Made by a program: the position numbers and the translations under genes
DNA from: a virus
Virus record (IMG/VR): IMGVR_UViG_3300033388_007409
Location: 1-46,450 of that record
DNA length: 46,450 nucleotides
Reading direction: 5' to 3' (one strand)
The notes under the pieces: model-generated
The model's input: the letters and a program-made list of their open reading frames with translations, nothing else
Database searches by the model: none
Told to the model about the DNA's origin: nothing
Shown here: positions 4,780 to 43,073 of the stretch, one piece after another
Numbering within the stretch: the stretch's first letter is position 1
Layout: every line of letters starts with the position of its first letter

Positions 4780-5030
4780 CTCATTCCATCCGAATGAAGA
4801 TTATGTTTTTTACAATACTCTTCTGCGGTTAATTTTGGTGAATGCATGCTAACCATAGTTTTGACATCTTCGTTAATCTTGAAAATTTGGATAGATCGAG
4901 ATTTTAAGTTATCATATTTATTAAGAGTGCAAGCACTAGCAACACTCGAACCAAAACCATACATTTTTATAACAAGTTTATTCCTACGAGTAATAAAAAC
5001 TCTTCTCTGTTTATGCTCCCACCGGTTCAA
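4743..5030 (-). CDS. Hypothetical protein
   Basis: 95 aa, basic N-terminus similar to that of 4112-4327. The last residues (LDTHLLLH) are encoded by the inverted repeat, so the C-terminus may have been altered when the repeat formed. Overlaps the upstream gene by 4 bp. Function unknown. Confidence 0.5.
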   Translation of the reverse strand: MNRWEHKQRRVFITRRNKLVIKMYGFGSSVASACTLNKYDNLKSRSIQIFKINEDVKTMVSMHSPKLTAEEYCKKHNLHSDGMSWKFLDTHLLLH

Positions 5031-30414: not shown

Positions 30415-31172
30415 AAATTAGAAAATCAAGAGCAATTGAGCATATTGCAAACTGCGAACTGGTCCGTGACGATTGTAAATTTATATCAGAAGCTGCACCG
30501 TGGAAAATTATTAGCTCCAAACTTGACAAAGGGGCATTCCAACGTTTTGAAGTTGGAGACGATAGTTTTTTACGGTTTATGATCGATGGAACTTCAGATG
30601 TCTTTGAATGGGGATCTAATGCCCGTATTTTTGCAAGAGAAGGTTGTCACCGTGGTTTTTTACGAAGTGCAAAAGAGCTTTATGAGGATATTAAGGATAT
30701 TAAAACCGATTACACCGTATCCGATGATCATTCAAGAGGTGCCCCGATAGCCCTTTTAATCCTCATGTTAAAGTTTTGCGACTATCACGGCATTGATTGG
30801 AAGAAATACGGCCTTTACAAGGCAATTAGAAAGTGGAAAAAAGCGGGAGAGAATTATAACCCATGTTTTAATACACCTCAAATTGTTACAAGTGGATCAC
30901 CGGTTGTTATTACCGGAAAAATGAAGAGGCTTTTACAATCTCTAAAGGTTCAGCCATTCGATCACCACGCGTTGAGAACAAAAAAAGATCCTGTTTACAA
31001 GATAAGCCAAAAGGGAAGATTGAACTATCTCTTAATTCCACCGTTTTTGCGTTTGCACCACATAACACATTTTACATACGATCTACCAACAGCACCCGGC
31101 ATCGATCATTTAACACAACAATATTTAAAAGCGATTATTAAAAGCAGTAAAGAGATTTGGAGAGAAGAATGA
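30411..31172 (+). CDS. Lipase class 3-like esterase in lysis operon
   Basis: 253 aa. Follows the class 3 lipase order: FMIDGTSDVFEWGSNARIF (RGT-dW segment), GCHRGFL (HxGF), DHSRGAP at 106-112 in place of GHSLGGA (nucleophile Ser108), TSGSPVV (GSP strand), KKDPV (Asp193) and HH at 216-217. Such an enzyme would cleave phospholipid or another ester in the envelope and help lysis. Overlaps its neighbours by 4 bp on both sides, so all three are co-translated. No signal peptide is seen. Confidence 0.6.
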   Translation: MKIRKSRAIEHIANCELVRDDCKFISEAAPWKIISSKLDKGAFQRFEVGDDSFLRFMIDGTSDVFEWGSNARIFAREGCHRGFLRSAKELYEDIKDIKTDYTVSDDHSRGAPIALLILMLKFCDYHGIDWKKYGLYKAIRKWKKAGENYNPCFNTPQIVTSGSPVVITGKMKRLLQSLKVQPFDHHALRTKKDPVYKISQKGRLNYLLIPPFLRLHHITHFTYDLPTAPGIDHLTQQYLKAIIKSSKEIWREE

Positions 31173-31585
31173 AACCCACCGATTTTGTGTATATTCTCCA
31201 CTTTATAATTGAGGAGGTCTACAGAAGCGGAGTTGCAAGGCTTGAAGATGTAGATTACAGAACAATTCACCGCTTAGATAGAGTTAGAGAATTGGCGGGT
31301 TTTCCAATATGGATTTTATACAACGGGCTTACATCCGGCAAACATAACGCAACAGGTCACACGAAAGGTGTGGCGGTAGATTGCCACGCCCGAAGAATAA
31401 CCCACTCACAAGCCGTGAGACTATGTTTTTTAGCCGCTGAATGTGGTTTTAATACAATAGGGGTGTATTTGAATAAAAAGGGATATTACAGCTTCCATTT
31501 TGAAATTTCAAAAGAACATAAAACTTGGTTTGCGAAGAGAGTTGGTAAAAAGTGGGTTTATTCTCCACTTAAGTTTGCGGCTTAA
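31169..31585 (+). CDS. Endolysin, peptidase M15-type
   Basis: 138 aa from ATG 31169 (GAATGA overlap with the lipase-like stop). SGKHNATGHTKGVAVD gives the His64/Asp71 zinc ligands and YYSFHFEI gives His110, the set of L-Ala-D-Glu / D-Ala-D-Ala peptidases of the M15_3 group used as endolysins. No signal sequence, so export depends on a holin. Confidence 0.82.
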   Translation: MKPTDFVYILHFIIEEVYRSGVARLEDVDYRTIHRLDRVRELAGFPIWILYNGLTSGKHNATGHTKGVAVDCHARRITHSQAVRLCFLAAECGFNTIGVYLNKKGYYSFHFEISKEHKTWFAKRVGKKWVYSPLKFAA

Positions 31586-31607
31586 ATTAAAAAATTGGCG
31601 TAAACTA

Positions 31608-31636
31608 TTGACTTGCTGTTTTTAATTCTGTACATT
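31608..31636 (+). promoter_or_regulatory. Candidate rightward promoter at edge of cassette array
   Basis: TTGACT (31608) and TACATT (31631) with 17-bp spacing. It points right, into the array and antisense to its ORFs. Could make antisense RNA or, if attC polarity follows the extra base, act like an integron cassette promoter. Sequence match only. Confidence 0.35.
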
Positions 31637-31650
31637 TATTCTATACCCTA

Positions 31651-31707
31651 TAATAACAACAGCGTGAGTGATGACCCGTGGGGCACACTACGCGCCATTG
31701 TTATATA
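31651..31707. repeat. attC-like site 1 (array end)
   Basis: Outer boxes AATAAC and GTTATAT; inner arms GCGTGAGTG and CACTACGC with one unpaired G. Lies 21 bp from the stop of the last cassette ORF (31728-32006). Borders the lysis operon, so it marks the left end of the array. Confidence 0.65.
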
Positions 31708-31727
31708 GAATCTATCTGATTTGTTTT

Positions 31728-32006
31728 CTACTTAGCTTTACAATTCACAAAAGCACTGGCTACATCTTCTTGATGGATGTAATTCCAGTTACCATCTTTC
31801 TTGTCGTGCTGGTCGTATGGTCTTGGCTCAACCTTTTTCATCACTTGTTTGTGTTGTTCGTGAATTAATGTTTCTTTCGCTTCAAGCTCCTCTTTCAGTG
31901 CATTATAAGCATTTTCGGCAAGCATCCACTTATCTTCTCTCAAAACTTTTTGTCTACCTTCTTCTAATCCCGTAAACCACTCGTTAAAACTTTGAATCTT
32001 TTCCAT
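31728..32006 (-). CDS. Cassette protein, helical, unknown
   Basis: 92 aa, acidic/basic helical protein (WFTGLEEGRQKVLREDKWML). SD AAAAGGAT in the leader GTTATGAACAACTTTAAAAG, nearly identical to that of 32718 and 41302. Cassette bounded by sites 1 and 2. No family recognised. Confidence 0.55.
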   Translation of the reverse strand: MEKIQSFNEWFTGLEEGRQKVLREDKWMLAENAYNALKEELEAKETLIHEQHKQVMKKVEPRPYDQHDKKDGNWNYIHQEDVASAFVNCKAK

Positions 32007-32028
32007 TTTCTATCCTTTTAAAGTTGTT

Positions 32029-32081
32029 CATAACCAGTCATATTGGTGTGGCCTTGAGGCACACCATCTGGTTGTTATATA
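32029..32081. repeat. attC-like site 2
   Basis: CATAACC ... GTTATATAG, inner arms ATTGGTGTG/CACACCATC with one extra T. Followed by CCCCGCCGTTA, a motif also found after sites 6 and 10, into which the next ORF's stop falls. Confidence 0.75.
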
Positions 32082-32092
32082 GTTCCCCGCCG

Positions 32093-32371
32093 TTAATCTC
32101 CACTCGGTGGGTTACCAAGATCACACTCACAACCACCAGAATATCCAGAACCTTTAGAATGTGTCGCTAACTTAGCTCCGCACTTTTTGCACATTGGCTC
32201 ATCTTTTTCAAGAAGAACTTCTTCTTTTTCTTTATTTATTTCATAAACCATTTTGCAAAAACTCAGAAAAGCATAAAAACTAATTACATACTGTTTCCAC
32301 CCACTCGGTGCTAGTATTGCTCCAAGTAAAAAAATATGGAATATTATATCTTCAACTTGTGACTGTCTCAC
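32093..32371 (-). CDS. Cassette membrane protein with Cys motif
   Basis: 92 aa. Hydrophobic N-terminal half (IIFHIFLLGAILAPSGW and FYAFLSFCKMVYEI, probably two passes), then CKKCGAKL and CECD near the C-terminus that may bind zinc. Overlaps the upstream ORF by 4 bp in the same two-gene cassette. Function unknown. Confidence 0.5.
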   Translation of the reverse strand: MRQSQVEDIIFHIFLLGAILAPSGWKQYVISFYAFLSFCKMVYEINKEKEEVLLEKDEPMCKKCGAKLATHSKGSGYSGGCECDLGNPPSGD

Positions 32372-32718
32372 ATCTTTCTCACTTTTTCTAGTAGTTCTTC
32401 TAACTTTGGCTTAGTAGCTTCAGCAACAATATTTTTCTCTGTTTTATGCCACGCTGGAGTATTGTTAATTATGCAATCACAATTCTCAATACCTAAATTA
32501 GCAACTAATTCAATAAGTTCTAATTCCTCTTTTGTAAACTTTTCTTTTCGGAGCCTCTCACATTCTTCAAATGTTGACTCGTACTCAAATTTAACAACCT
32601 CATACCCTTCCAAATAACCTTGAGCTTGCTCTTTTTTTAGATATTCATCAGCCTCATACTTCGTAGGAAAATCTATGCAATACCCATCACCTTTTTGTAC
32701 TCTCCAATCAACTGCCAT
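32368..32718 (-). CDS. Cassette protein, unknown
   Basis: 116 aa. The N-terminus contains GYCIDFPTKYEADEYLKKEQ, a short alpha/beta pattern, with a helical C-terminus (EATKPKLEELLEKVRKM). Leader GTTATGAACAATTTTAAAAG with SD AAAAGGAT is shared with 41302. First gene of its cassette. Confidence 0.55.
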   Translation of the reverse strand: MAVDWRVQKGDGYCIDFPTKYEADEYLKKEQAQGYLEGYEVVKFEYESTFEECERLRKEKFTKEELELIELVANLGIENCDCIINNTPAWHKTEKNIVAEATKPKLEELLEKVRKM

Positions 32719-32740
32719 TTTCTATCCTTTTAAAATTGTT

Positions 32741-32803
32741 CATAACCAAACGGTTGGGGATGTCTGCGCCTTAAGGCTTGCACCCCACCTACACCGTTAT
32801 ATA
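32741..32803. repeat. attC-like site 3
   Basis: CATAACC ... GTTATATAG; inner arms GGTTGGGG and CCCCACC with one extra T; central GCGCCTTAAGGC forms the loop stem. Confidence 0.75.
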
Positions 32804-32809
32804 GTTGAT

Positions 32810-33019
32810 TTATTGTAATTCCTGTATGTATCTTGATTGATCATTTGCAACCGCTAAGAGTCTGTCTCTATCAATAGTAACATCCTGCAACTCCAGCTCT
32901 AATCTCTCGTTATCTAAAAGGAGCTTTTCTACAGCTTCCTCTTTAAAGTATCTAAAACCATCACCATCGCTATTGGCGTATACAAAAAGATTATCATTCT
33001 TAAAGTTCTTTATTTGCAT
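32810..33019 (-). CDS. Cassette protein, coiled coil
   Basis: 69 aa from ATG 33019. Short beta start, then an Asp/Leu-rich helix (EEAVEKLLLDNERLELELQD) that reads as a coiled coil. Third gene of a three-gene cassette. Confidence 0.5.
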   Translation of the reverse strand: MQIKNFKNDNLFVYANSDGDGFRYFKEEAVEKLLLDNERLELELQDVTIDRDRLLAVANDQSRYIQELQ

Positions 33020-33020
33020 A

Positions 33021-33251
33021 TTAATCAACTTTCTTTTGGCATACGAAACACACGCCGTTCATATCAAGATTAAAACAGCACTCGTGGCGATCATCGTCGT
33101 GTATTTTAGCCCCTCGTATTAGACAATCTATCTCTTTTTGTTTTCCGAGCTTCCACCGACTCTCTAGGGTGCCTTTTTGAACACCGCTTTTTTCAATTAG
33201 GAGAGTAAGCGTTATTCCTTTTTCTTTGCAGTGTTTACCAAGTGTTTTCAT
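33021..33251 (-). CDS. Cassette protein, HTH-like with Cys motif
   Basis: 76 aa. GITLTLLIEKSGVQKGTLES resembles a Cro-type helix-turn-helix; the C-terminal half has CCFN and CFVC spaced for a metal site. Overlaps the upstream gene by 4 bp. Could be a small regulator; not proven. Confidence 0.5.
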   Translation of the reverse strand: MKTLGKHCKEKGITLTLLIEKSGVQKGTLESRWKLGKQKEIDCLIRGAKIHDDDRHECCFNLDMNGVCFVCQKKVD

Positions 33252-33436
33252 AGTTTACCATCCTCTAAATAACTTTTCTTTATTTTTTCGGCTTCCTCAA
33301 TGCTCCACGCATAACTATAGTATGCAACAAATCGCCCAAACTCTCTTTTGTAATTAACACGAATAGATGGCGTTTCAGTAATGCTTGAGGATATTCCGCC
33401 ATTTTCATATTTTTTAGTTAATACTACAAATGCCAT
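33248..33436 (-). CDS. Cassette protein, unknown
   Basis: 62 aa. The start codon is part of the GTTATG box of attC-like site 4, so the ORF begins exactly at the cassette boundary. Beta-rich then helical (WSIEEAEKIKKSYLEDGK). Confidence 0.5.
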   Translation of the reverse strand: MAFVVLTKKYENGGISSSITETPSIRVNYKREFGRFVAYYSYAWSIEEAEKIKKSYLEDGKL

Positions 33437-33480
33437 AACCCCGCCTTGTTAAGTAGCCCCCGAAGGGGCAGTTGTTAGTT
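33434..33480. repeat. Degenerate attC-like site 4
   Basis: CATAACC ... GTTAGTT, only 47 bp, with a GCCCC/GGGGC central stem; the inner boxes are poor. The stop of ORF 33475-33636 lies in its TAAC and the start of ORF 33436 in its GTTATG, which supports a site despite the weak arms. Confidence 0.45.
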
Positions 33481-33636
33481 TGCAAACTTTGCGTCTACGA
33501 TTTCCCAAACTGCAACTCCTGCACCGCTGTCTCTTTTGTAAATTGCTTTTGCTTCTTCATACTCAACACCGTTTATCTCAATAATAGCTTCGATCATTGT
33601 TGTTGCTTTTTTTACTAAAATTTGTAAATCAGTCAT
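33475..33636 (-). CDS. Small cassette protein with own promoter
   Basis: 53 aa from ATG 33636, SD AAAGGAA. N-terminus MTDLQILVKKATTMIEAIIE is helical. Stop TAA is inside site 4. It lies alone in its cassette behind an AT-rich promoter (33681-33709). Independent promoters are common for toxin-antitoxin or other selfish cassettes, but only one ORF is visible. Confidence 0.5.
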   Translation of the reverse strand: MTDLQILVKKATTMIEAIIEINGVEYEEAKAIYKRDSGAGVAVWEIVDAKFAN

Positions 33637-33680
33637 CTTGTGTTCCTTTGTTATGTTGTTATCTCGTTGCCTTCTTAAAT

Positions 33681-33709
33681 AATATACACAATAATTATAC
33701 TTTATACAA
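33681..33709 (-). promoter_or_regulatory. Cassette-borne promoter
   Basis: Leftward -35 TTGTAT and -10 TATATT with 17-bp spacing and a TGTG extension before the -10. Lies inside the cassette between sites 4 and 5, upstream of ORF 33636. Confidence 0.55.
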
Positions 33710-33748
33710 GTAAAAAGATTAATTATTATACTTTTATTTAGAATTGAC

Positions 33749-33809
33749 CATAACAAGGCGTTTGGTGATGACGGGAAAAGCATCCCGCCCACCAACTTTG
33801 CGTTATATA
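33749..33809. repeat. attC-like site 5
   Basis: CATAAC, spacer, GTTTGGTG ... CACCAAC, spacer, GTTATATAG: arms pair over seven bases with one extra T; central CGGGA/TCCCG stem. The stop TAA of ORF 33803 lies within the TATATAAC box. The most regular site of the set. Confidence 0.85.
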
Positions 33810-34024
33810 GTTTGATTTATTGTCTCTTGTAGTTCTTCAATTAACTCGTCAGCAGTATAGGAATGGTCTTGAAGTTCTTCTCCATTAAATAGATAGTCAA
33901 TAATCCACTCTGATTCATTGCTACAGTCTCCGTACGCATACTCGTAATTTCTGTCATACACAAGGCTGTTGATGGAGATTCCGTTTTCTTTACAAAACTT
34001 CTCAATCTTTTTTCTTGATGTCAT
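33803..34024 (-). CDS. Cassette protein, acidic
   Basis: 73 aa, Tyr/Asp/Glu-rich (NYEYAYGDCSNESEWIIDYL). Resembles small acidic cassette proteins in composition; no fold recognised. SD AAAGGAAA. Stop sits inside site 5. Confidence 0.55.
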   Translation of the reverse strand: MTSRKKIEKFCKENGISINSLVYDRNYEYAYGDCSNESEWIIDYLFNGEELQDHSYTADELIEELQETINQTI

Positions 34025-34044
34025 TATGTTTCCTTTAATTTTAT

Positions 34045-34109
34045 CATAACCAAGGCAGTTGGTAATGACTGCCTCATTCTTCGTTGCATACCACTTTAGC
34101 TGTTATATG
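34045..34109. repeat. attC-like site 6
   Basis: CATAACC ... GTTATATGG; inner arms AGTTGGTAATG and CATACCACT with an extra T and A. Followed directly by a GGGGAG/CTCCCC hairpin (34109-34128) and CCGCCGTTA. Confidence 0.75.
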
Positions 34110-34132
34110 GGGAGTTTTTACACTCCCCGCCG

Positions 34133-34351
34133 TTATCTGTCGATTTGATTGTATATAGCCATATCTATTCTACATTTTGCAATTTGCCATTTTCTACATA
34201 CTGTTTTTCGTGGCATATTTTCTGCAAAGTCGGCATCTTCCATCTCTGGATCACTACACCGCTTTTTAACCTCTTTAAATCTTTTGCAGTTTGCACAACT
34301 GGCTTGTAAATTTAAACTACTTCTTTCTATTTTAGGGCTAATTCTTCTCAT
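34133..34351 (-). CDS. Cassette protein, Cys-rich
   Basis: 72 aa; CANCKRF, RCSD and VCRKW place four or more Cys that could bind a metal. Predicted small zinc protein, 17 bp after the DUF5131-like gene with which it shares a cassette. Confidence 0.5.
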   Translation of the reverse strand: MRRISPKIERSSLNLQASCANCKRFKEVKKRCSDPEMEDADFAENMPRKTVCRKWQIAKCRIDMAIYNQIDR

Positions 34352-34368
34352 ATTTAACCAATCCCATT

Positions 34369-34941
34369 TTAAATTCTTTTCAGATTCTTTTTTATCACAA
34401 CTTCACCACTGAATGATGAGATTAAATTATCAATCTTTTCTCTACTTGGTTCTGGCATTCCAGAGTTTGAAGAATCTGCACCAATGTCAACAGTTACAAA
34501 AGTTCTATTGTTTTTTAATGCTCCAATTGCATAAGCTCTTTCAAGTGGAAGAGGAGTATTTCCCATTTCCTCATAAGTTCTATTTGTTTCAATTGTAGTT
34601 CCAAGAACAAACTTTTTAGAAAATTTAAACTTGTGAAACCGTTCTGGGTATTTAGTTTGTAGAAGATACTGATTATCAAAACTCTCACAATAATCAATAG
34701 TTTTCTGAATCCACTCATCAGGAATATCAGAAGCAAACATATCTGTACTGCTTCCAATAAAAATGAATTTATCAGAACCTAAATCTGTTTTCAACTCCTT
34801 TTCATCAAACCGAACAGGTTTTAATTCTCCCCATCGTTTCATATAACAATACGAACAATCGTGAGAACATTTACCTTTAACTACATTCCAAGTATGAGTT
34901 ACAAAATCATACATATTGCCTTTTGATTTATTCAATGCCAT
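34369..34941 (-). CDS. DUF5131/Gp37-like radical SAM-type protein
   Basis: 190 aa. CSHDCSYCYM gives a C-x3-C-x2-C motif (Cys25, 29, 32) that normally holds the 4Fe-4S cluster of radical SAM enzymes. The surrounding pattern (FIGSSTDMFASDIPDEWIQK; LQTKYPERF; GTTIETNR) is typical of this phage-carried family. Substrate unknown. First gene of its cassette with AAAGTAGGAAACA leader. Confidence 0.72.
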   Translation of the reverse strand: MALNKSKGNMYDFVTHTWNVVKGKCSHDCSYCYMKRWGELKPVRFDEKELKTDLGSDKFIFIGSSTDMFASDIPDEWIQKTIDYCESFDNQYLLQTKYPERFHKFKFSKKFVLGTTIETNRTYEEMGNTPLPLERAYAIGALKNNRTFVTVDIGADSSNSGMPEPSREKIDNLISSFSGEVVIKKNLKRI

Positions 34942-34964
34942 TGTTTCCTACTTTCCGACAGGAT

Positions 34965-35024
34965 CATAACCTGTCATATTGTGGATGACGAGAAAAGCAC
35001 TCGCCCCACATCTGTTTGTTATTT
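34965..35024. repeat. attC-like site 7
   Basis: CATAACC ... GTTATTTG; arms ATTGTGG and CCCACAT with an extra T, plus ACGAG/CTCG central pairing. The TAA stop of ORF 35019 lies in its AAATAAC box. Confidence 0.75.
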
Positions 35025-35315
35025 GTAATGATAAGTTTTACCACTACCGAAATATTTATCTTCTGTAATTTTTACTACATTCACAATTGTGCTTTTACTG
35101 TAATTGCCTAAAGCAATTCTATCACCAACTACAACCCCATCGTTGAAGTTCGGATAACAAAATTTGACATTCTTTAAGCCTCTATCCACCCACCCGTCAT
35201 TAGGGTGTGCCGCCTTAACGCCTTTATTTCTAAGAACAGCAACCCAGCTCTTTGTTGCCTCAACTCTGTCTGAAACAGATTTATTAAATATCTCAACAAA
35301 ATCTTTAGCACTCAT
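35019..35315 (-). CDS. Cassette protein, unknown
   Basis: 98 aa, N-terminal helix followed by a beta barrel-like half (DGVVVGDRIALGNYSKSTIV) resembling a small SH3-type fold. Single-gene cassette between sites 7 and 8, with stop inside site 7. SD GAGGTTG. Confidence 0.55.
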   Translation of the reverse strand: MSAKDFVEIFNKSVSDRVEATKSWVAVLRNKGVKAAHPNDGWVDRGLKNVKFCYPNFNDGVVVGDRIALGNYSKSTIVNVVKITEDKYFGSGKTYHYK

Positions 35316-35333
35316 TTACAACCTCCTCTAAGT

Positions 35334-35396
35334 CATAACCTATGCAGTTGGTGCGACTTCGCTTTGAAGCTCGCTCACCACTTAGGCTGTTATATA
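35334..35396. repeat. attC-like site 8 (near twin of site 9)
   Basis: CATAACC, GTTGGTG ... CACCAC, GTTATATAA with one extra T. About 35 central bases are identical to site 9 at 40897; no other pair in the array is this similar. Left boundary of the 5.56-kb integrase/methyltransferase segment. Confidence 0.85.
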
Positions 35397-35422
35397 AATG
35401 TTGATGAATTGTTAACAACTGA

Positions 35423-35812
35423 CTACCCAAATATAGCCTTATGAACATCAACCCAAATAACAGCCCCCGAAGGCTGATTAAATATTATTGGCTCATCGTA
35501 TCGCTTAACTTCTCTCAAAATCCACGGGGTATCCCATTTCCCCATAAGAGATTTATCTTTAATCCTGTGCTTCCAATACCAATAATCATCCTCAATAAAA
35601 CGTTTTTGAGGCTTTAAACAGTTTACAAGATTCGCTTCACCAACAATAGAAGATGTTCCCTGTTCAATTAAACAAATCCTACCCCGCTTTTTAGTTTTAG
35701 AGGTTCGCATCTCCCACGGCTTTAACTCAGAAAGAACCATTTCAATCCAAGGTTGTCGGATTATCAACCCACTTTCTGGAAGAAAACTAATTGGAGGTGT
35801 TTTGATATCCAT
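35423..35812 (-). CDS. ASCH-domain protein
   Basis: 129 aa. GLIIRQPWIEMVLSELKPWE and RTSKTKKRGRICLIEQG match the ASCH fold (PUA-like RNA-binding domain), which phages commonly carry next to regulators. Probably binds RNA or modified bases. ATG with GAGGTG SD; 3 bp from the upstream gene. Confidence 0.75.
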   Translation of the reverse strand: MDIKTPPISFLPESGLIIRQPWIEMVLSELKPWEMRTSKTKKRGRICLIEQGTSSIVGEANLVNCLKPQKRFIEDDYWYWKHRIKDKSLMGKWDTPWILREVKRYDEPIIFNQPSGAVIWVDVHKAIFG

Positions 35813-35815
35813 TTT

Positions 35816-36280
35816 TCACCTCAAATCAAATCGATAAAATCCACCAGCAACAGTTTTCTCAGGAATACCCTCTTTTACTGCAATCTCGCCCTCACTCAAC
35901 CCTAAATTATCCTTATGGAGCTTAACCCAATACTCTTTTCGTCTTACAGGATTTTTAAGTTTATCATGGAAGCCATATTTATTAATTGCAGCATAAACAC
36001 AATTTGCAGTTACTCCGATCGCTTTTGCAATTTCCACAACGGATTTCCCGAAATTGTCAGAAAGTATCAACTCCCACTCATCTTTAGTTCGCCTTTTAGA
36101 TGGGATATGTCTGTTTAAAACTTCAGAACAATATCCACACCGAAAAGAATCTTTTCTTTTTTCAGTTTCCCACGGCCTAACAACCTGGACACCGTCATAA
36201 AACTGAGAGAATAGAACATCTTTCTCTGTTAATTTGATGTATTTGCAACCGCAGGAACAACGGAGATTAATTTTAGCCAT
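35816..36280 (-). CDS. Zinc-ribbon and helix-turn-helix protein
   Basis: 154 aa. N-terminal CSCGCKY and CGYC give a zinc ribbon. Middle SVVEIAKAIGVTANCVYAAI and C-terminal GEIAVKEGIPEKTVAGGFYR are two HTH-like units. Likely DNA-binding regulator of the phage leftward region. Confidence 0.6.
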   Translation of the reverse strand: MAKINLRCSCGCKYIKLTEKDVLFSQFYDGVQVVRPWETEKRKDSFRCGYCSEVLNRHIPSKRRTKDEWELILSDNFGKSVVEIAKAIGVTANCVYAAINKYGFHDKLKNPVRRKEYWVKLHKDNLGLSEGEIAVKEGIPEKTVAGGFYRFDLR

Positions 36281-36291
36281 TAAAACCGCAC

Positions 36292-36453
36292 CTATTCATC
36301 ATAATTATTTACTCTTCCATAATTGCCGTTATTGCGAACCTCTTCGCACCGTTTAGAAATTTCACACTTTTTATCGGCTCTAACGAGAATGAAACTTAAA
36401 GCAAAAAATGCCAGTAAAACCGACACTAAACAGATCCAACTGAGATTTTCCAT
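36292..36453 (-). CDS. Small membrane-anchored protein
   Basis: 53 aa. N-terminal single membrane span (WICLVSVLLAFFALSFILV) and a short Cys-containing, Asn-rich tail. Not found by long-ORF criteria but fits between neighbours on the same strand. Unknown role. Confidence 0.45.
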   Translation of the reverse strand: MENLSWICLVSVLLAFFALSFILVRADKKCEISKRCEEVRNNGNYGRVNNYDE

Positions 36454-36470
36454 TATAAATTGGGGAAACA

Positions 36471-36758
36471 TTATGAATCACCATCAAGCCCATCAGCTTC
36501 GATATCATCGCACATTTTGTGCATTACCTTATACCACTCAATAAACTCTGGATTTTCTGGGCTGTTTGCCTCTCCCACGTAATCATCAACCGCTGTTTCG
36601 GCGGCCTTGAAATATTCAGCAATAAAAAGAGGAGCTGTGTTTTCTGTGGTAATTTGCGCATAAAGCACATCATAAGCACAAAGAGCAAATCTCGTCTCTT
36701 TTTCGGTAAGTTCGCCACCGATACGAGCGGCCGCTGTAATTTGTTCAAGATTTCTCAT
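36471..36758 (-). CDS. Hypothetical protein
   Basis: 95 aa, helical and acidic (EQITAAARIGGELTEKETRF). Overlaps the upstream gene by 14 bp. Not recognised. Confidence 0.5.
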   Translation of the reverse strand: MRNLEQITAAARIGGELTEKETRFALCAYDVLYAQITTENTAPLFIAEYFKAAETAVDDYVGEANSPENPEFIEWYKVMHKMCDDIEADGLDGDS

Positions 36759-37128
36759 TCATTAACCTCTTTAACTTTTCAAAATTGATTTTAACATTAT
36801 CAGAATCACCGTTAACAATTCCACCGGATATCTGCAACCAATGTTCACTATTTATAAAAACTGATTTGGTTATTCTACCATGGTATTCCAAGTTTCCATT
36901 TTTACCAATAACAAAAAGCCCCTCACGTTTAACACCAAAGAGATCAATCTTGCTATTTTTTGGAATTTCAACAACATCCCAATCGTGGATAATTTCGCCT
37001 TTTCGAAGAAGAATAACTCCACAGCCATCACTATAAATCTCCACAGATTGTTTTTTATACAATCCAACCCCACCGATTAAACACCGGAGAAACTTAAGGC
37101 CGTATTCGTTGTATTTTATTTCAATCAT
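36745..37128 (-). CDS. Hypothetical beta-rich protein
   Basis: 127 aa. Beta-rich with SVEIYSDGCGVILLRKGEII and VFINSEHWLQISGGIVNGD. Overlaps the upstream gene by 4 bp. No family recognised. Confidence 0.5.
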   Translation of the reverse strand: MIEIKYNEYGLKFLRCLIGGVGLYKKQSVEIYSDGCGVILLRKGEIIHDWDVVEIPKNSKIDLFGVKREGLFVIGKNGNLEYHGRITKSVFINSEHWLQISGGIVNGDSDNVKINFEKLKRLMNEKS

Positions 37129-37715
37129 ATTTGAAAATCCCCAACTTCAACAGTATCTTCACCAACTCCACAAAATTTGTCGATATATTCTGCAATACCA
37201 TCACGTTTAATACCCGATTTACCTTTTATGCAATGCCACCCATTTTTATTTGCTAATTCTCTTGGATTTTCTATAATTGTTGAAAAACCAACATCAATAA
37301 ACACATCAGCAATATTATTTTCCTGTTGAATTGCCACAAGTTCTGCAGTAGTTTCTGCCTCTCCATTTTTAACAAGAGAATTACCCTCAACTATAGCCCA
37401 CTTCCAACAAGAATACATCGGATCAATTAATAAAAAAGTAAGTTGTTTCCTCAAAAGATTAGCATTGTCATTATTAATTTTATACCATAAATAGTATTTA
37501 CCTTTTCTATTCAGCTTAAGAGTTTTAGGTGTTACCAACTTTAACCGTTTAAGCACCTCTTTAATAGAATGACAATTATAAAAACCAGTTGCAATATTTA
37601 TAACAGCAGCATCAACTTCTTTCTGCCAAAACTCCTTTGGATAATCAAACCCCTCAAAAGCTTTTTCAAACTCATCTTTAACAAGCTTATTATTTTTACC
37701 CCAAGCCATCATCAT
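37125..37715 (-). CDS. Protein with terminase-nuclease-like segment
   Basis: 196 aa from ATG 37715 (SD AAAGGTGG). C-terminal IADVFIDVGFSTIIENPREL and NGWHCIKGKSG echo the TFIDAGYANATVLTF ... YPILG segment of the large terminase in this genome, a piece of its RNase H-type nuclease. There is no ATPase part. May be a stand-alone RNase H-fold nuclease; alternative is chance similarity. First gene after its own promoter. Confidence 0.5.
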   Translation of the reverse strand: MMMAWGKNNKLVKDEFEKAFEGFDYPKEFWQKEVDAAVINIATGFYNCHSIKEVLKRLKLVTPKTLKLNRKGKYYLWYKINNDNANLLRKQLTFLLIDPMYSCWKWAIVEGNSLVKNGEAETTAELVAIQQENNIADVFIDVGFSTIIENPRELANKNGWHCIKGKSGIKRDGIAEYIDKFCGVGEDTVEVGDFQI

Positions 37716-38159
37716 AAAACCCACCTTTAAAACAAGAAAACGGAACTACCAAACACGAGTGACAGAGGTTAAGCTAATAACCATTTCGCATTGATAATCC
37801 CGTTTTCAGAATTTTTATTTAGCTTATAATGAACTGTCACATCCACTAGAAATATACTAGATTAACTTAGTGTAAACAATAGGATTATTAACATTCTATT
37901 ATATTCACTACAAAATCCCTTATTTTAGCCAAGTAAAATTGGAGAAAACGAAAAAAATTTACTTTTTTTTACTAAAAATTTAAGTGTCTGATAGGTTAAT
38001 TTTTAAAAAGAGCCAATTTTTAAGGATATAAGAGGCACAACCGACCACCCCAAGCACGTTTGCACCCCTAAACTCAATTTTAGCCCAAAAAACAGAAAAA
38101 ACCCGATAATTAACCAACGAGACAACTTTATTAACTTTAGACAGTTAACCATAGACAGA
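37716..38159. other. Non-coding gap between leftward units
   Basis: About 440 bp without a credible gene. Holds a leftward promoter (37851-37879), inverted repeats GGTTA/TAACC at 37768-37783 and TTAACT/AGTTAA at 38133-38150, and A-rich tracts. A candidate place for operators or attP, though no obvious core site is seen. Confidence 0.4.
37851..37879 (-). promoter_or_regulatory. Leftward promoter with overlapping inverted repeat
   Basis: -35 TTGTTT and -10 TATATT with 17-bp spacing, reading left toward 37715. CTAGAAATATACTAG (37846-37860) covers the -10, so a repressor site is likely. Spacing and repeat seen; function inferred. Confidence 0.5.
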
Positions 38160-38187
38160 AAAAAGAGAGCGAAGTCACTTTCTTTTT
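38159..38187 (-). terminator. Terminator after methyltransferase gene
   Basis: AAAAAGAGAG (38160-38169) pairs with CTTTCTTTTT (38178-38187), one G-T pair, 8-nt loop. Leftward it ends in six T. Closes the 42770-to-38219 leftward unit. Confidence 0.6.
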
Positions 38188-38218
38188 GTAAAACTGTGAA
38201 GCGGGGATTGGCTTAAAC

Positions 38219-38953
38219 TCAAAGAAAACTCTGTTGTGCAGTCTCCTCTTTGAACCGTTGTTCACTCAAATCATAATATTTTTTATCAAGCTCTGATCCT
38301 GTAAAGTTTAAGCCTAGACGATGGCAGGCAATTTTAATTGATCCTGAACCTGTATGAGTATCAAGAATTTCATCACCATCTTCTGCGTAAGTTTCTAACA
38401 TCCACAGATAAAGCTCAACAGGTTTTTGAGTTGGATGTATCCTTTTTTCATTCAAAGCCTTGTTTCCTTGAGCAACGTGGCCACAAACTCTATTTCTGCC
38501 TTGAATCATTCCATTCCACATAAACTTAAAAATCACAGTAGGTTTTTCAAATGATGTCCAAGCTAGTTCATAATCATTAAAAGAGCTATTGCCGTTGCAC
38601 TTATCCCATATTATCCAACCCACTGGATGTTTTTTGATAAAGTCGCCTATCTCTTCACCTCTTGGAGTTTCAAAAGGTTCTCCAATAAAGCTAAAGTAAT
38701 TAGCTCCCCAAATGATTTGATTCTCTGAAACTCTCGTAAGCTCATTGAAATATTCTAAAGTAGGAATCTCCCAACCCTTAATGCCTGGATAATCTGGGCG
38801 TTTAACCCCTGTTGAGGAATAACCACCACCAAAGTACTTTTCTCTGTTTGGCCCTTTAAAATACGGGGGGTCTACAGGAGCCAAATTTTTAGACTTATCA
38901 GCAAGTGCAGCCATCATCTCCATACAATCCATATTTTGATCATTAATACTCAT
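38219..38953 (-). CDS. DNA N6-adenine methyltransferase (beta-class order)
   Basis: 244 aa. Catalytic DPPY at 28-31 precedes the AdoMet motif ILDTHTGSGS at 196-205, with RIHPTQKP before it, the beta-group order. Only about 240 aa, with a target-recognition part between the motifs. No cognate endonuclease is nearby, so it is an orphan methylase that may protect phage DNA or regulate genes. Confidence 0.85.
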   Translation of the reverse strand: MSINDQNMDCMEMMAALADKSKNLAPVDPPYFKGPNREKYFGGGYSSTGVKRPDYPGIKGWEIPTLEYFNELTRVSENQIIWGANYFSFIGEPFETPRGEEIGDFIKKHPVGWIIWDKCNGNSSFNDYELAWTSFEKPTVIFKFMWNGMIQGRNRVCGHVAQGNKALNEKRIHPTQKPVELYLWMLETYAEDGDEILDTHTGSGSIKIACHRLGLNFTGSELDKKYYDLSEQRFKEETAQQSFL

Positions 38954-38960
38954 AATTTAA

Positions 38961-39119
38961 TCACCTTTTTAAATCCTCATTAACTTTAAAAGTTAAAACC
39001 TTTGTAAAATTTGTAATAGTTGTAAACTGGTTTGCATCCGGATGTCTAGCCATCCAAAAAATAGTTCCAATAATCCACCAAATTAAAAAGATATAACCAA
39101 TTATTTTCAAACTTTTCAT
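38961..39119 (-). CDS. Small membrane protein
   Basis: 52 aa with one span (IGYIFLIWWIIGTIFWMA). Start overlaps the integrase stop (ATGA), end 7 bp before the methyltransferase start. Possibly an exclusion or regulatory peptide; unknown. Confidence 0.5.
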   Translation of the reverse strand: MKSLKIIGYIFLIWWIIGTIFWMARHPDANQFTTITNFTKVLTFKVNEDLKR

Positions 39120-40279
39120 AGTTTCTCCCTTAAAACTGCAAACACAGTACTAGGAGAAATCCCCGCACCATCCACAATTCCCTTCAACTCATCAACAACA
39201 CTCTCCAACAACTCTGCGTGCAGCTTGTAGTATGCCCCAAGCTTCTTAAGCTCTTCCGCACGGGTTACATTATACTTATCATACATATCATTTGTAGAAT
39301 GTCCCGTTTGAAGCTTGGTAAGCTCCCTATCTTTTCCCTCTTGCCTCCACCTGGTTACAAGTGAACCACGTTGATCGTGAATATTAAATTTATGCCATTT
39401 GGTGCCATTAACAGCCTTGCGGTAGTTTTGGTAATACGTATCGTAAGAGAGGTGTTTATCAAGCGTTAAATTAAAAACGTAGGAACTATCAATAACAAGT
39501 TGAGACTCACCTTTTTTTATGGTCCTCTCTTTAATTTCTTTTAACAGCTCCAACGGCTCTTTTTCTAAAACACCAACACGATCTTTAGCCTCTTTTGTAT
39601 CGGCTGCTTTTTTTAATAGCATACCCACACGCAAATCAATTTCGCCCCATTTAAGAGAGAGAACTTCATTAATCCGCCAACCGGTGTGAAAGAGAATTGT
39701 AATAATATCCCTCATGTACCACGGTGATTTATCAAAGCATTTCACAAACTCTTTAAACTGCACAATGTCCATAACCGTTTTTCTAACATTTTTACGTTGA
39801 AACTCTTTTGTAAATTTGATTTTTGCAATTGGGTTGCGATCGATCAACTCAATTTCGTTTGCATAGCTATAAACTCTTTTGAAATATGTTAAATAATTAC
39901 TAATCGTTGACACTTCATATTTTTCGGAGTTTAACAACTCAGTAATCCACTCGCGGACATCTTCAGTTGTTATTCCTGCGAGGGTATAATCTCCCCACCG
40001 TTGGATGCATTTTTTAACACAAGAGCTATTGCTTTTGCCTGTTTTGGTTGTTTCGAGATGTTGATAGAGATATTTTTCCGCAACTTCTGCAAAATGCAAA
40101 TTATAGAAGTTTTGATCCATAATAGAATTTTGGCTATTGATCCCCCCAGATTTATGTTGATCTTCGTAGGTTTGAGCGAGTTTTTTAGTTTTAAAACCGC
40201 TTTTGTATGTTCTATTTTTGGATTTTGGCTTTGGGTAGAAACTGCAAAACCAATTGTTTTTTCTTAGTAGATTAACCAT
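39116..40279 (-). CDS. int: Phage integrase, tyrosine recombinase
   Basis: 387 aa. Catalytic residues: Arg202 (HTGWRINEV), His301 and Arg304 (HDQRGSLVTRW), His327 (TGHST) and Tyr336 nearby (YDKY). N-terminal AP2-like arm (GFKTKKLAQTYEDQH) and SAM-like core (VREWITELLNSEKYEVST). It lacks the extra alpha-helix region expected of integron integrases between the second patch boxes, so it is a phage integrase and not IntI. Neighbouring attP not identified. Confidence 0.9.
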   Translation of the reverse strand: MVNLLRKNNWFCSFYPKPKSKNRTYKSGFKTKKLAQTYEDQHKSGGINSQNSIMDQNFYNLHFAEVAEKYLYQHLETTKTGKSNSSCVKKCIQRWGDYTLAGITTEDVREWITELLNSEKYEVSTISNYLTYFKRVYSYANEIELIDRNPIAKIKFTKEFQRKNVRKTVMDIVQFKEFVKCFDKSPWYMRDIITILFHTGWRINEVLSLKWGEIDLRVGMLLKKAADTKEAKDRVGVLEKEPLELLKEIKERTIKKGESQLVIDSSYVFNLTLDKHLSYDTYYQNYRKAVNGTKWHKFNIHDQRGSLVTRWRQEGKDRELTKLQTGHSTNDMYDKYNVTRAEELKKLGAYYKLHAELLESVVDELKGIVDGAGISPSTVFAVLREKL

Positions 40280-40878
40280 TAAACTTTTAATCCTTTATTT
40301 CCAAACTTAAAATTAAACATAGAACACCAATACCTTTGATCTTCATTAGAATAATTACTTTTATAATTACCGCACTTTTTGCACTTTAAAGCCTTGCAAT
40401 CCTCTGTTTTGCTTGGGGTAGCAGTATTAACGGATTTTTGCAGGTTCTTTTTAGGTTGTGGTTTACTGTCAATTTTTTTGATAGTTTTTTTTAGAGGCAA
40501 AAGAGTTATGCCTGGATGATCTTTGTTCATAAAGTCGCTAAGTCTATTAAAACAGCTAATACCTTTGTCCATTTCTAAACTAAGCTCGTGGTAACATTTT
40601 TTATCAAGGACTTTTTTACCGTTTTTACTTAACTTTTGTCCACGAAGTGCAATTTTCATCTTATCACTTTTATTAGATGATAAGATGTGAACTTTTTTTA
40701 ACTCAAAAACAATTGGTATTCCATCATCATTATTAAATGCTGTTGCTGGAATGGTTATTTTATCACCAATAGAATATCCATAGTTCTCTTTAATGAACTT
40801 CTCATCTAAATTAGCATAATCTTGAGTTCTTTGAGCCTCAATCTTATCAGAAGCTATCCTGTAATCTTCTGCTGTCAT
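40279..40878 (-). CDS. Hypothetical protein with C-terminal zinc ribbon
   Basis: 199 aa from ATG 40878 (SD AGGGAGG). N-terminal helix then a beta region (YSIGDKITIPATAFNNDDGI), basic linker, and CKALKCKKCGNYKS ... WCSM zinc ribbon. The last codon abuts the integrase ATG. Could regulate or assist the integrase (excisionase-like partner) by position only. Confidence 0.5.
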   Translation of the reverse strand: MTAEDYRIASDKIEAQRTQDYANLDEKFIKENYGYSIGDKITIPATAFNNDDGIPIVFELKKVHILSSNKSDKMKIALRGQKLSKNGKKVLDKKCYHELSLEMDKGISCFNRLSDFMNKDHPGITLLPLKKTIKKIDSKPQPKKNLQKSVNTATPSKTEDCKALKCKKCGNYKSNYSNEDQRYWCSMFNFKFGNKGLKV

Positions 40879-40896
40879 TTTGACCTCCCTAAAAGT

Positions 40897-40959
40897 CATA
40901 ACCGTGGCGGTTGGTGCGACTTCGCTTTGAAGCTCGCTCACCACCTAGGTTGTTATATA
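40897..40959. repeat. attC-like site 9 (near twin of site 8)
   Basis: CATAACC, GGTTGGTG ... CACCACCT, GTTATATAC, one extra T; central GCGA-CTTC/GAAG-C-TCGC stem. Right boundary of the core segment. Confidence 0.85.
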
Positions 40960-41112
40960 CTACTCACAATCTATTACTGTAGTTCCTGCGTGTTCGCTGT
41001 GCCAATAAACAAGACGAATACAGCTTTCTCCAAGTTCAATTATTTGAAACCCTTTATTTTTTGGAAATTCCTTAAATTTAGGGTATAATTTTCTAAGAAT
41101 AAATTTAACCAT
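40960..41112 (-). CDS. Cassette protein, unknown
   Basis: 50 aa from ATG 41112, overlapping the upstream stop (ATGGTTAA). Basic N-terminus VKFILRKLYPKFKEFPKNKG. Stop TAG is five bases from the TATATAAC box of site 9. Confidence 0.5.
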   Translation of the reverse strand: MVKFILRKLYPKFKEFPKNKGFQIIELGESCIRLVYWHSEHAGTTVIDCE

Positions 41113-41302
41113 TTTCAATAGCCTTATTCCTAGCCTTTTCCCCAACAAATTGTGATAACTGCTGACAACACCAAAATACAGGATATTCGTGTTTAATATC
41201 ATCTTCGGTCATATCACCCTCCAAATGCGGGTCGGTATCACCTACAACACCATCAAGAGTATTAAATACTTCTTCCATTATTTTCTGTTCTTCTTTAGTC
41301 AT
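41105..41302 (-). CDS. Cassette protein, acidic
   Basis: 65 aa, acidic helix with PVFWCCQQLSQFVGEKARNK. Leader after site 10 (GTTATGAACAATTTTAAAAG + GATAGAAA) is nearly identical to that of ORF 32718. First gene of its cassette. Confidence 0.55.
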   Translation of the reverse strand: MTKEEQKIMEEVFNTLDGVVGDTDPHLEGDMTEDDIKHEYPVFWCCQQLSQFVGEKARNKAIENG

Positions 41303-41324
41303 TTTCTATCCTTTTAAAATTGTT

Positions 41325-41386
41325 CATAACCGAGCGCGTTCATTTTACCACGATAAAGCTGTGGAAAACGACTCAGTTGTTATAAG
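41325..41386. repeat. attC-like site 10
   Basis: CATAACC ... GTTATAAGG; arms CGTTCATTTTACCAC and GTGGAAAACGACT pair with an extra T and one more bulge. Followed by CCCCGCCGTTA as at sites 2 and 6. Confidence 0.7.
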
Positions 41387-41404
41387 GTGGATTTTACCCC
41401 GCCG

Positions 41405-41632
41405 TTATTTGCTCAGTAACTCATCTATTGATAAACCAGCAATTCTAGTGATTTCAAATTTTTCACCGCACTCAGGGCACTTGCGAATAATAGAAATATT
41501 CTCAGCATCCACATTAGTTCCAATGTCAAATTTTATCATCTCTTCGGCTGTTGGTATTACCCTATTAGGGTTTTCACAGTGGTAACATTTTACTATTAGC
41601 CAACTTCGCCACATAGCTCTAAGTTTTTTCAT
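41405..41632 (-). CDS. Cassette zinc-ribbon protein
   Basis: 75 aa. CYHC at 16-19 and CPEC near residue 52 give a four-Cys zinc ribbon. TAA stop lies in a TAACGGCGGGG box. Start overlaps the upstream ORF by 4 bp. Possible nucleic-acid binding protein. Confidence 0.6.
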   Translation of the reverse strand: MKKLRAMWRSWLIVKCYHCENPNRVIPTAEEMIKFDIGTNVDAENISIIRKCPECGEKFEITRIAGLSIDELLSK

Positions 41633-41799
41633 AGTCTAGAAATTCTATCTTTAAACTCCTCGAAATCTTCATCTAAATCGTCATTTGTTTCAGTTTCATT
41701 AAAATGACATTTAAATTGATACCAATTTTCTTCTGTAAATCCTAGCATCTTATCTAAAATTGCTCGTTCTTTTTTGGTAACTTCTATTAATTTTACCAT
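41629..41799 (-). CDS. Small cassette protein, acidic
   Basis: 56 aa from ATG 41799 with SD AAAAGGAT, the cassette-type leader. Glu/Asp-rich C-terminus (TETNDDLDEDFEEFKDRI). Upstream partner of the zinc-ribbon ORF. Confidence 0.55.
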   Translation of the reverse strand: MVKLIEVTKKERAILDKMLGFTEENWYQFKCHFNETETNDDLDEDFEEFKDRISRL

Positions 41800-41826
41800 T
41801 TTCTATCCTTTTTAAAGTTTACAAGC

Positions 41827-41889
41827 CATAACCAGCTTGTTCATTTGACTGCTCTTGTTCCTCGTTTGCAAACGACAAGAGCGTTATTT
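41827..41889. repeat. attC-like site 11
   Basis: CATAACC ... GTTATTTAA; arms CTTGTTCATTTG and CAAACGACAAG with an extra T, and CTCTTG/CAAGAG further pairing. TAA stop of ORF 41884 lies inside its box. Confidence 0.75.
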
Positions 41890-42033
41890 AAAATCTGTGA
41901 ATACCTTTTTAATGTCTTCTACATCTACAGCTTTGTTAAAATTATCAACCTCATACGATTTTTTAATCAAAGCATTATATAGTCTTTTCATCTTCCCATT
42001 TTTTAATACTTTTTCCGAAGCCTTTTCTATCAT
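41884..42033 (-). CDS. Small cassette protein, basic
   Basis: 49 aa if ATG 42033 is used; an upstream ATG (42066) overlaps the preceding ORF and would add 11 residues. Basic helical N-terminus (EKASEKVLKNGKMKRLYNAL). Stop is in site 11. Confidence 0.5.
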   Translation of the reverse strand: MIEKASEKVLKNGKMKRLYNALIKKSYEVDNFNKAVDVEDIKKVFTDFK

Positions 42034-42037
42034 CCTT

Positions 42038-42202
42038 CTACTCTTGTAATTCGCCCGTGTCCACATCTATTCCACCTTGTGTCAATAATTCATTAACTTT
42101 AAACATCAGATAACCAACACACTCTGCATTGGTCATTTCCATACCACTGTATTTCTCCAACAATTCTCCCAAATCGTCGTAAAAACTATCACCTAATACC
42201 AT
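42038..42202 (-). CDS. Small cassette protein
   Basis: 54 aa, SD GGAGAG, starts 20 bp after site 12. Helical (YDDLGELLEKYSGMEMTNAE). Not recognised. Its C-terminal end is read just before the partner ORF 41884-42033. Confidence 0.5.
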   Translation of the reverse strand: MVLGDSFYDDLGELLEKYSGMEMTNAECVGYLMFKVNELLTQGGIDVDTGELQE

Positions 42203-42221
42203 TTTCTACTCTCCTTAAAGC

Positions 42222-42270
42222 CATAACCAATATGTTGTCGCGACTTTAGCGCAACACATCGGTGTTAAGA
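42222..42270. repeat. attC-like site 12 (first in array)
   Basis: CATAACC ... GTTAAG, short (49 bp), arms ATGTTGTCGC and GCGCAACACAT with one shifted base. A GTGCA/TGCAC hairpin (42273-42287) follows on the right. Weaker than others but in place between ORFs. Confidence 0.6.
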
Positions 42271-42291
42271 ATGTGCATATTTTGCACTTTG

Positions 42292-42603
42292 CTATTCAAA
42301 AGCAACATCCCCAATAATCCCAAACGTCCCACACTGAACAGCAATAAAAGCCTCTAAATCTTTCATTATCTCAGTAGTATCTCCAAAATTATGAAACAGC
42401 GTACACTCTTGAATCATCTTAACCGCAAGTTTCCGAACGGTGCAACTGTTTTGATTACAGCAATTCCCACAACACTTATACTCGATATCGTGTGTGGTTC
42501 TCCGTTTCTCCTCTATCGCTTTGAGGAGAACATTGTTTGGATTAACTCCAATAGATTCCAACTCATCAGCCAACGATATTAATTTTTTATTATCGGCTTC
42601 CAT
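42292..42603 (-). CDS. Cys-rich protein at head of array
   Basis: 103 aa. CCGNCCNQNSC plus later Cys suggests a metal or Fe-S site. Stop 22 bp from site 12. Start overlaps the previous stop (TAATG). Composition close to the accessory proteins of 3-8 kb. Confidence 0.55.
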   Translation of the reverse strand: MEADNKKLISLADELESIGVNPNNVLLKAIEEKRRTTHDIEYKCCGNCCNQNSCTVRKLAVKMIQECTLFHNFGDTTEIMKDLEAFIAVQCGTFGIIGDVAFE

Positions 42604-42770
42604 TATCTATCCTCATTGCTTTGGTTGTACATCTCAACAAGCTCATCAGTTGTTTTTCTCTCCAACCTAAAAGGAGGTATGCCGGTACGAATAGTAAGAA
42701 TAAAACAGAGTTGAACCCTCTGCACTCTTATCTTCTGGAGAAGTCCAGAATCTTCTTTTGAAATATTCAC
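42603..42770 (-). CDS. First small gene of leftward operon (GTG start)
   Basis: 55 aa; GTG start preceded by GGGG. Basic-hydrophobic middle (VQRVQLCFILTIRTGIPPF) and an acidic end. Its TAATG overlap with the next start supports translation. Its size and place downstream of the divergent promoter fit an early regulator, but no motif is recognised. Confidence 0.5.
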   Translation of the reverse strand: MNISKEDSGLLQKIRVQRVQLCFILTIRTGIPPFRLERKTTDELVEMYNQSNEDR

Positions 42771-42814
42771 TTACACCCCATTATCTACTAAAAGTCTTAA
42801 TTACACTTTTTATA

Positions 42815-42843
42815 AATCTACATATAAATTTTTAATAATGCAA
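42815..42843 (-). promoter_or_regulatory. Candidate leftward early promoter
   Basis: -35 TTGCAT and -10 TAGATT with 17-bp spacing, reading toward GTG 42770. Match only; region is AT-rich so chance hits are likely. Confidence 0.35.
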
Positions 42844-42939
42844 TAAAAAATGGTTAGTTTCTAAAAAAATGGGTTATATTCATAATTGTCGATGGTTGGT
42901 ATTAGATCCCTTTAGACATTAAAAAGCTTTTATATTAAA

Positions 42940-43054
42940 CTCACATTTGAGAGAAATAGGTTGAGTCCTGTTTTATTAAGCTTTAACAGTTCTTGACGAT
43001 CTAACTATCTATCTCTTTGAGAGCCCTTGACATTGAATTGTTAAGGGCTTTTTT
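42940..43054 (+). ncRNA. Candidate short leader RNA before HTH gene
   Basis: A TATATT box at 42931-42936 would start a transcript near 42943 that meets a very strong terminator at 43022-43054, making about 110 nt. A CTGTT/AACAG hairpin (42968-42989) lies within. Could be a regulatory RNA or attenuator controlling the HTH/replication genes. The -35 is poor. Confidence 0.35.
43022..43054 (+). terminator. Strong terminator/attenuator
   Basis: Stem AGCCCTTGACA with TGTTAAGGGCT (11 bp, one G-T), 6-nt loop, then six T. It lies 20 bp upstream of the HTH gene, so downstream genes need read-through or antitermination. Confidence 0.8.
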
Positions 43055-43073
43055 GCGTTTGGAGGTGGAACTA

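Follow-up and report, generated by a model that had tools for sequence, protein, structure and literature searches.

A probable attC-like cassette array in the early region of an uncultivated phage, with sites mostly oriented against their genes

Results

Small leftward genes and eleven attC-like palindromes

The stretch of DNA analysed here (the window) comprises 46,450 nucleotides, positions 1 to 46,450 of the IMG/VR virus record IMGVR_UViG_3300033388_007409, and belongs to a phage whose portal protein is 65% identical to that of Shewanella phage SppYZU01. Structural genes run rightward up to position 31585. Beyond them, between 31651 and 42270, eleven imperfect palindromes of 50–65 nt resembling the attC sites of integrons lie among small leftward phage genes (Table 1). 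This array is part of a leftward gene run that starts near 42.8 kb, adjoining the rightward replication genes.

A structural detector that requires complementary ATAAC…GTTA boxes 44–75 nt apart and an inner stem, and nothing else, returned the same 11 sites and no others in the region 31001–43000. Dinucleotide shuffles of this region (n = 30) gave a mean of 0.1 and a maximum of 1 site, and 0 were found in the window's first 31 kb. Twelve attC-like sites had been proposed in the initial annotation, of which eleven were thus recovered at or next to the proposed positions, with complementary outer R boxes carrying AAC…GTT. The twelfth, at 33434, failed as an attC-like site; a short GC-rich hairpin of the terminator type (33456–33469) is found there instead. 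A search for tRNAs found none.

Table 1. Features of the array region and its surroundings, in window coordinates (ORF, open reading frame).
Feature	Coordinates	Strand	Remarks
Promoter-like motif TTGACT-N17-TACATT	31608–31636	+	Directed into array; same polarity as the sites, opposite to the cassette genes
s1 array-end element, attC-like palindrome	31651–31706	+	Interior conserved in four phages; place equivalent to attI
Cassette gene, 92 aa	31728–32006	-	Relative in phage G009, in another cassette
attC-like site s2	32028–32080	+	Polarity +
Two-ORF cassette	32093–32718	-	ORFs 32093–32371 and 32368–32718
attC-like site s3	32740–32802	+	
Three small ORFs	32810–33436	-	32810–33028, 33021–33251 (relative in G004 cassette), 33248–33436
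Small cassette ORF	33475–33636	-	Start side and site s5 common to G001 and G004
attC-like site s5	33748–33808	+	Best window match to bacterial attC model (17.6 bits, + strand)
Cassette gene, 73 aa	33803–34024	-	Stop codon within s5 box
attC-like site s6	34044–34108	+	92% identical site in phage G002
Two ORFs	34133–34941	-	34369–34941, DUF5131/radical-SAM-like protein
attC-like site s7	34964–35024	+	
Cassette gene, 98 aa	35019–35315	-	phrog_9621
attC-like site s8	35333–35395	+	Near copy of s9
Gap between array halves, leftward phage genes	35423–40279	-	Methyltransferase 38219–38953; tyrosine recombinase 39116–40279
Tyrosine recombinase, 387 aa	39116–40279	-	Catalytic residues present; not IntI
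Cassette-side gene	40279–40878	-	
attC-like site s9	40896–40958	+	
Cassette, two small ORFs	40960–41302	-	
attC-like site s10	41324–41385	+	GTTCATTTT arm type
Cassette, two small ORFs	41405–41799	-	41405–41632 and 41629–41799
attC-like site s11	41826–41889	+	14.2 bits to bacterial attC model, + strand
Cassette, two small ORFs	41884–42202	-	42038–42202, 80% identical over 44 aa to gene in G010
attC-like site s12, right array end	42221–42270	+	

The same kind of array in other phages

Exact patterns and a sequence-only model (R1) of the window sites were searched against IMG/VR and gave 83 sites in 12 viral contigs, namely the window (G000) and eleven further contigs with 2–12 sites each. Arrays of this kind are therefore present in at least 11 other uncultivated phages, most of which have a backbone unrelated to the window's; contigs of 123 and ~153 kb are among them. 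The twelve are not all independent, since G001, G007 and G009 are mutually related (64–81% DNA identity in parts) and three contigs come from a single metagenome (3300033148). For the tape measure of G001 nothing closely similar was found among cultured phages. A pattern scan that returned 104 stretches consisted mostly of chance coding matches, and about nine true array loci were retained from it.

The site type was not found in isolate phages (50,697, blastn), in plasmids (72,556, blastn), in 84,980 genomes searched with one strict pattern, in 369 Gammaproteobacteria (model search), in 45 loci of bacterial integron integrases (IntI) together with four known phage records, or in 71 IntI-bearing viral loci. 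For bacterial genomes this absence is not proof, as it comes from one strict pattern and a sample of 369 genomes. Dozens of IMG/VR contigs (L254–L301), which may include host sequence, carry a gene about 40–49% identical to integron integrases, and none of those tested had the present site type.

Anatomy of the sites

An alignment of 76 sites revealed near-invariant outer boxes, ATAAC on one side and GTTAT on the other, with AAC present in 76/76 and TTA in 75/75. Inside them, the spacer columns (8–11 vs 89–92) pair at or near chance level, except at the edge adjoining the arm. Pairing in these sites amounts to 83.9%, compared with 76.3% in shuffles, and the covariation of the inner arms is 0.218 against 0.101 in shuffles, none of which (0/500) reaches the observed value, and at most 0.053 when slid. 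A thymine of the left arm (T18) is present in 76/76 sites and is unpaired. The layout of an attC site is an R box, an unpaired spacer, an L box and an extra-helical base (PMC8946536), and the phage sites share this anatomy. Their boxes, spacer, covarying arms and unpaired T back the integron-like layout that the initial annotation had recognised, and its outer boxes CATAAC/GTTATA, its inner arms pairing with a single extra base and its conserved arms with variable centres are confirmed.

No T-run accompanies the sites as a class, and a reading of the repeats as ordinary terminators is rejected for the class, the hairpin at 33434 excepted. The genes are fitted closely to the sites. The stop codon overlaps the neighbouring site in 32 of 63 phage cassettes, falling 2–7 nt within its end, and many cassettes have their start codon ~20–23 nt from a site; this spacing points to modules built for operon read-through. 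Four ORFs had been annotated as ending inside a box, which holds for those at 33803, 35019 and 41884; the one at 33475 is not among the confirmed cases.

A short GC hairpin, GGGGAGTTTTTACACTCCCC, is located directly past the outer box of s6 (34108–34135), with a similar stretch in G001 (4755–4781), and another similar hairpin follows s10 (41386–41403).

Polarity of sites and genes

Read as CATAAC…GTTAT, the phage sites have paired L boxes with the extra-helical base predominantly on one arm, the 5' arm in 61 cases and the 3' arm in 5. Bacterial attC sites, extracted by structure from 80 bacterial IntI loci and read away from IntI, carry the first extra base in the 5' arm in 58 cases and in the 3' arm in 14. 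In the phage arrays this base is in the arm facing the start of the gene (5' arm, + strand), a feature that the initial annotation had not noted, so that the polarity is reversed relative to known cassettes. When the longest ORF between each pair of neighbouring sites was taken across the 12 contigs, 57 were antisense and 6 sense, and several of these 6 are close calls in which an antisense ORF is nearly as long; the bacterial control gave 36 sense and 16 antisense. A gene in the sense of attC polarity, with the attC at its 3' end, is thus not the arrangement of the phage arrays, and in all twelve contigs the cassette genes are mostly reversed relative to the sites.

A structured covariance model built from 42 bacterial attC sites (R2) was also applied. 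The controls, with 35–43 bits for the Vibrio cholerae repeats (VCR), 25–48 for Shewanella and 21–27 for the validated sites of phage TJE1, were all detected on the gene-sense strand. The phage sites reached up to 25.4 bits, the better ones on the strand opposite to the genes, as were all six sites above 16 bits in one scan. In the window R2 matched the exact coordinates of the sites, two of them at 14–18 bits. In known integrons strand selectivity orients the gene for expression from the cassette promoter Pc (PMC8946536). Genes lying antisense to attC polarity would end up in the wrong orientation for expression if a standard attI/Pc integron inserted them.

Cassettes shared between phages

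Cassettes common to different phages were observed. Shared blocks extend more than 15 nt past the site on the left, the gene-start side, in 18/66 cases and on the right in 1/66, the shared site-containing stretches ending at the right outer box. One cassette (X) of 353 bp is 89% identical in G007 and G009, where the sites flanking it differ on both sides and the outer box marks its left edge. Three cassette genes of the window recur in cassettes of G009, G004 and G010, the last being a ~152-kb phage contig (Table 1). The methyltransferase at 38219–38953, outside the array in the window, has relatives in a cassette of G011 and at the array edge of G001. G001 and G007, 64–81% identical over several kb, have no cassette gene in common. 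The gene modularity described in the initial annotation is supported by these cassettes, which recur in different genomes and beside different neighbours.

If the cassette reading is right, the methyltransferases and a Lar-like and an ASCH protein among the small genes suggest a role in counter-defence. The similarity of a G002 cassette protein (L049, 189–425) to the restriction-alleviation protein Lar is weak and sub-threshold.

The array-end element and the tyrosine recombinase

The leftmost site, s1, is conserved over its whole interior in the window, G001, G002 and G009, and in all four phages the s1-type element occupies the left end of the array or of an array half. A motif T[TA]GACN-N17-TANNTT, defined after the fact and with a background density of 0.0018 per 45 nt, is placed 41–42 nt upstream of the element in 4/4, pointing into the array. 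When 2.9 million viral contigs were scanned, s1 turned up in the three other array phages and nowhere else. By analogy, s1 and its promoter-like motif would have the place and direction of an integron Pc-attI in four phages. Unlike the attI/Pc pattern, s1 is a palindrome and the cassette genes face it.

The only tyrosine recombinase of the window (39116–40279) reaches 30.6 bits against the IntI family, for which the cut-off is 265, is devoid of the IntI patch, an IntI-specific insertion, and was assigned to phrog_1. Homologues of ~390 aa occupy the array gap of G007 and G009, the three proteins being 33–40% identical to one another. When two peptide patterns were run in a narrow scan over the 2.9 million viral contigs, these two array phages were the only relatives returned; isolate-phage relatives reach ~25% identity only, and a single-sequence scan for close relatives found none. 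The G009 recombinase gene stops ~40 nt short of the s1-type element. The ~390-aa protein may be the recombinase of the array or an ordinary lysogeny integrase.

The intergenic stretch 42864–43064, between the leftward array operon and the rightward replication genes, is 78% identical to contig G007 and is probably a divergent promoter region.

Discussion

The locus is, with fair probability, an attC-like mobile cassette array in a phage early operon, with a site polarity opposite to that of the genes. The sites resemble attC in all structural respects that were tested, but the gene sense differs from that expected of attC and bacterial attCs are matched only weakly; the name attC-like phage cassette system was chosen for this reason. 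The anatomy, covariation and polarity of the sites, the modular sharing and the sharp edge at the outer box are observations; recombination, strand choice and the route of expression would follow the scheme below. In each cassette, one to three genes that have a ribosome-binding site but no promoter would be joined to an imperfect palindrome of 50–70 nt acting as an integron attC does. One strand of the site would fold into a hairpin in which the outer boxes and the inner arms are paired, the spacer stays unpaired and some bases are extra-helical. A tyrosine recombinase cutting the outer box between G and TTATAT would excise or insert the cassette. Candidate recombinases are an IntI of the host or of a helper and the phage-encoded ~390-aa recombinase. 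As the sites are opposite in polarity to the genes, expression would come from read-through of leftward early transcription, entering from the array end away from the attI-like element, instead of from a Pc behind attI.

Several points weigh against this interpretation. No recombination event was observed directly, the window does not encode an IntI, and no tyrosine recombinase was seen in 9/12 array contigs, several of which are fragments. The outer box GTTATAT is one position off GTTRRRY. Most window sites score only 7–11 bits with R2, and about half of these weak hits prefer the - strand; these weaker sites being undecided as to strand, it is the extra-helical bases and the stronger sites that carry the polarity claim. 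Part of the left-side similarity between shared blocks is a common ribosome-binding leader and may reflect functional constraint instead of cassette identity. Cassette X has its right edge in the leader, outside the site, and looks there like a homologous exchange.

The last observation touches an alternative in which the sites are conserved boundaries for homologous recombination between co-infecting phages, with no site-specific recombinase. The common leader repeats beside several sites are also in agreement with it, but it leaves unexplained the covarying stem, the fixed extra-helical base, the unpaired spacer and the fact that the shared blocks stop at the outer box on only one of their sides, and we consider it improbable. 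Much the same standing is given to an ordinary integron cluster of attC sites lacking an integron integrase (CALIN), acquired from a bacterial host integron and mobilised in trans by the host IntI. The sites do have the anatomy of attC, part of them score like the validated TJE1 sites, phage CALINs are known and IntI1 recombines 5/6 phage attCs tested (PMC9892861). Against this origin stand the orientation of the genes, which in all 12 contigs mostly run counter to the polarity of the sites, the absence of the site type from the genomes (one strict pattern), plasmids, IntI loci and 369 Gammaproteobacteria searched, and the scant representation of cassette genes near IntI. The initial annotation had likewise held that the cassettes are made or shuffled by a host integrase, a view left without support by the same absence from the bacterial genomes, plasmids and IntI loci tested, by the lack of IntI in the window and by the antisense genes.

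An RNA element, either regulatory or a processing/termination hairpin between operon genes, is very unlikely: although the sites fold on both strands and lie at stop codons and ~22 nt ahead of start codons, there is an unpaired 6-nt spacer inside near-invariant outer boxes, the class has no T-run, an Rfam search gave no credible match, and blocks of genes are seen to move along with the sites or from one site to another. A specific form of the attC-like cassette array, less probable than the general one, is a self-contained phage system in which the ~390-aa recombinase acts on the sites and s1 is the attI-like target. The three recombinases are closer to one another than to isolate-phage relatives, the peptide-pattern scan returned only the two array phages, s1 is confined to four array phages and the G009 gene borders an s1-type element; yet 9/12 array contigs show no such gene, the scan was narrow, the protein has no IntI-type patch, and it may simply be a lysogeny integrase. 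This form thus appears rather unlikely, as does, to the same degree, the wider proposal of a phage-owned integron-like system with its own recombinase, an attI-like s1 with promoter and single-gene cassettes of inverted polarity that pass between phages, separate from bacterial pools.

If the attC-like cassette array is what it appears to be, some phages would own a gene-swapping device that works on folded sites of single-stranded DNA. It would be distinct from the integrons of bacteria and hold dozens of uncharacterised small genes, including methyltransferases, a Lar-like and an ASCH protein. The consistent reversal of polarity would provide a natural test of the accepted view that strand choice at attC orients cassettes for expression from Pc, and such arrays can be sought in viromes directly by means of the site class.

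Comparison with known systems

The chromosomal arrays of Vibrio (VCR) and Shewanella have the same R box, unpaired spacer and L box, the same one-gene modules with the stop codon in the box and the extra-helical bases on the same arm. The present array differs from them in having no IntI, in the opposite polarity of its genes, in its weak match to the bacterial model and in a site type not found in the bacterial genomes searched. The protein encoded by 39116–40279 belongs with the phage tyrosine integrases (phrog_1), but sits within the array and is without the IntI-specific insertion. CALINs have already been published in Tetrasphaera phage TJE1, Pseudoalteromonas phage PH101 and Polaribacter phage P12002L (Qi et al. 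2023, PMC9892861); in the first 50 kb of PH101 the R2 model found no credible attC. As here, attC-type palindromes are placed between small phage genes, with no IntI in cis and with methyltransferase cassettes. TJE1 has three sites, compared with the 11 of the window, and its sites are gene-sense whereas those described here are antisense; the present site sequence class is absent from isolate phages. The phage array is closest to the phage CALINs of PMC9892861 and differs from those already known.

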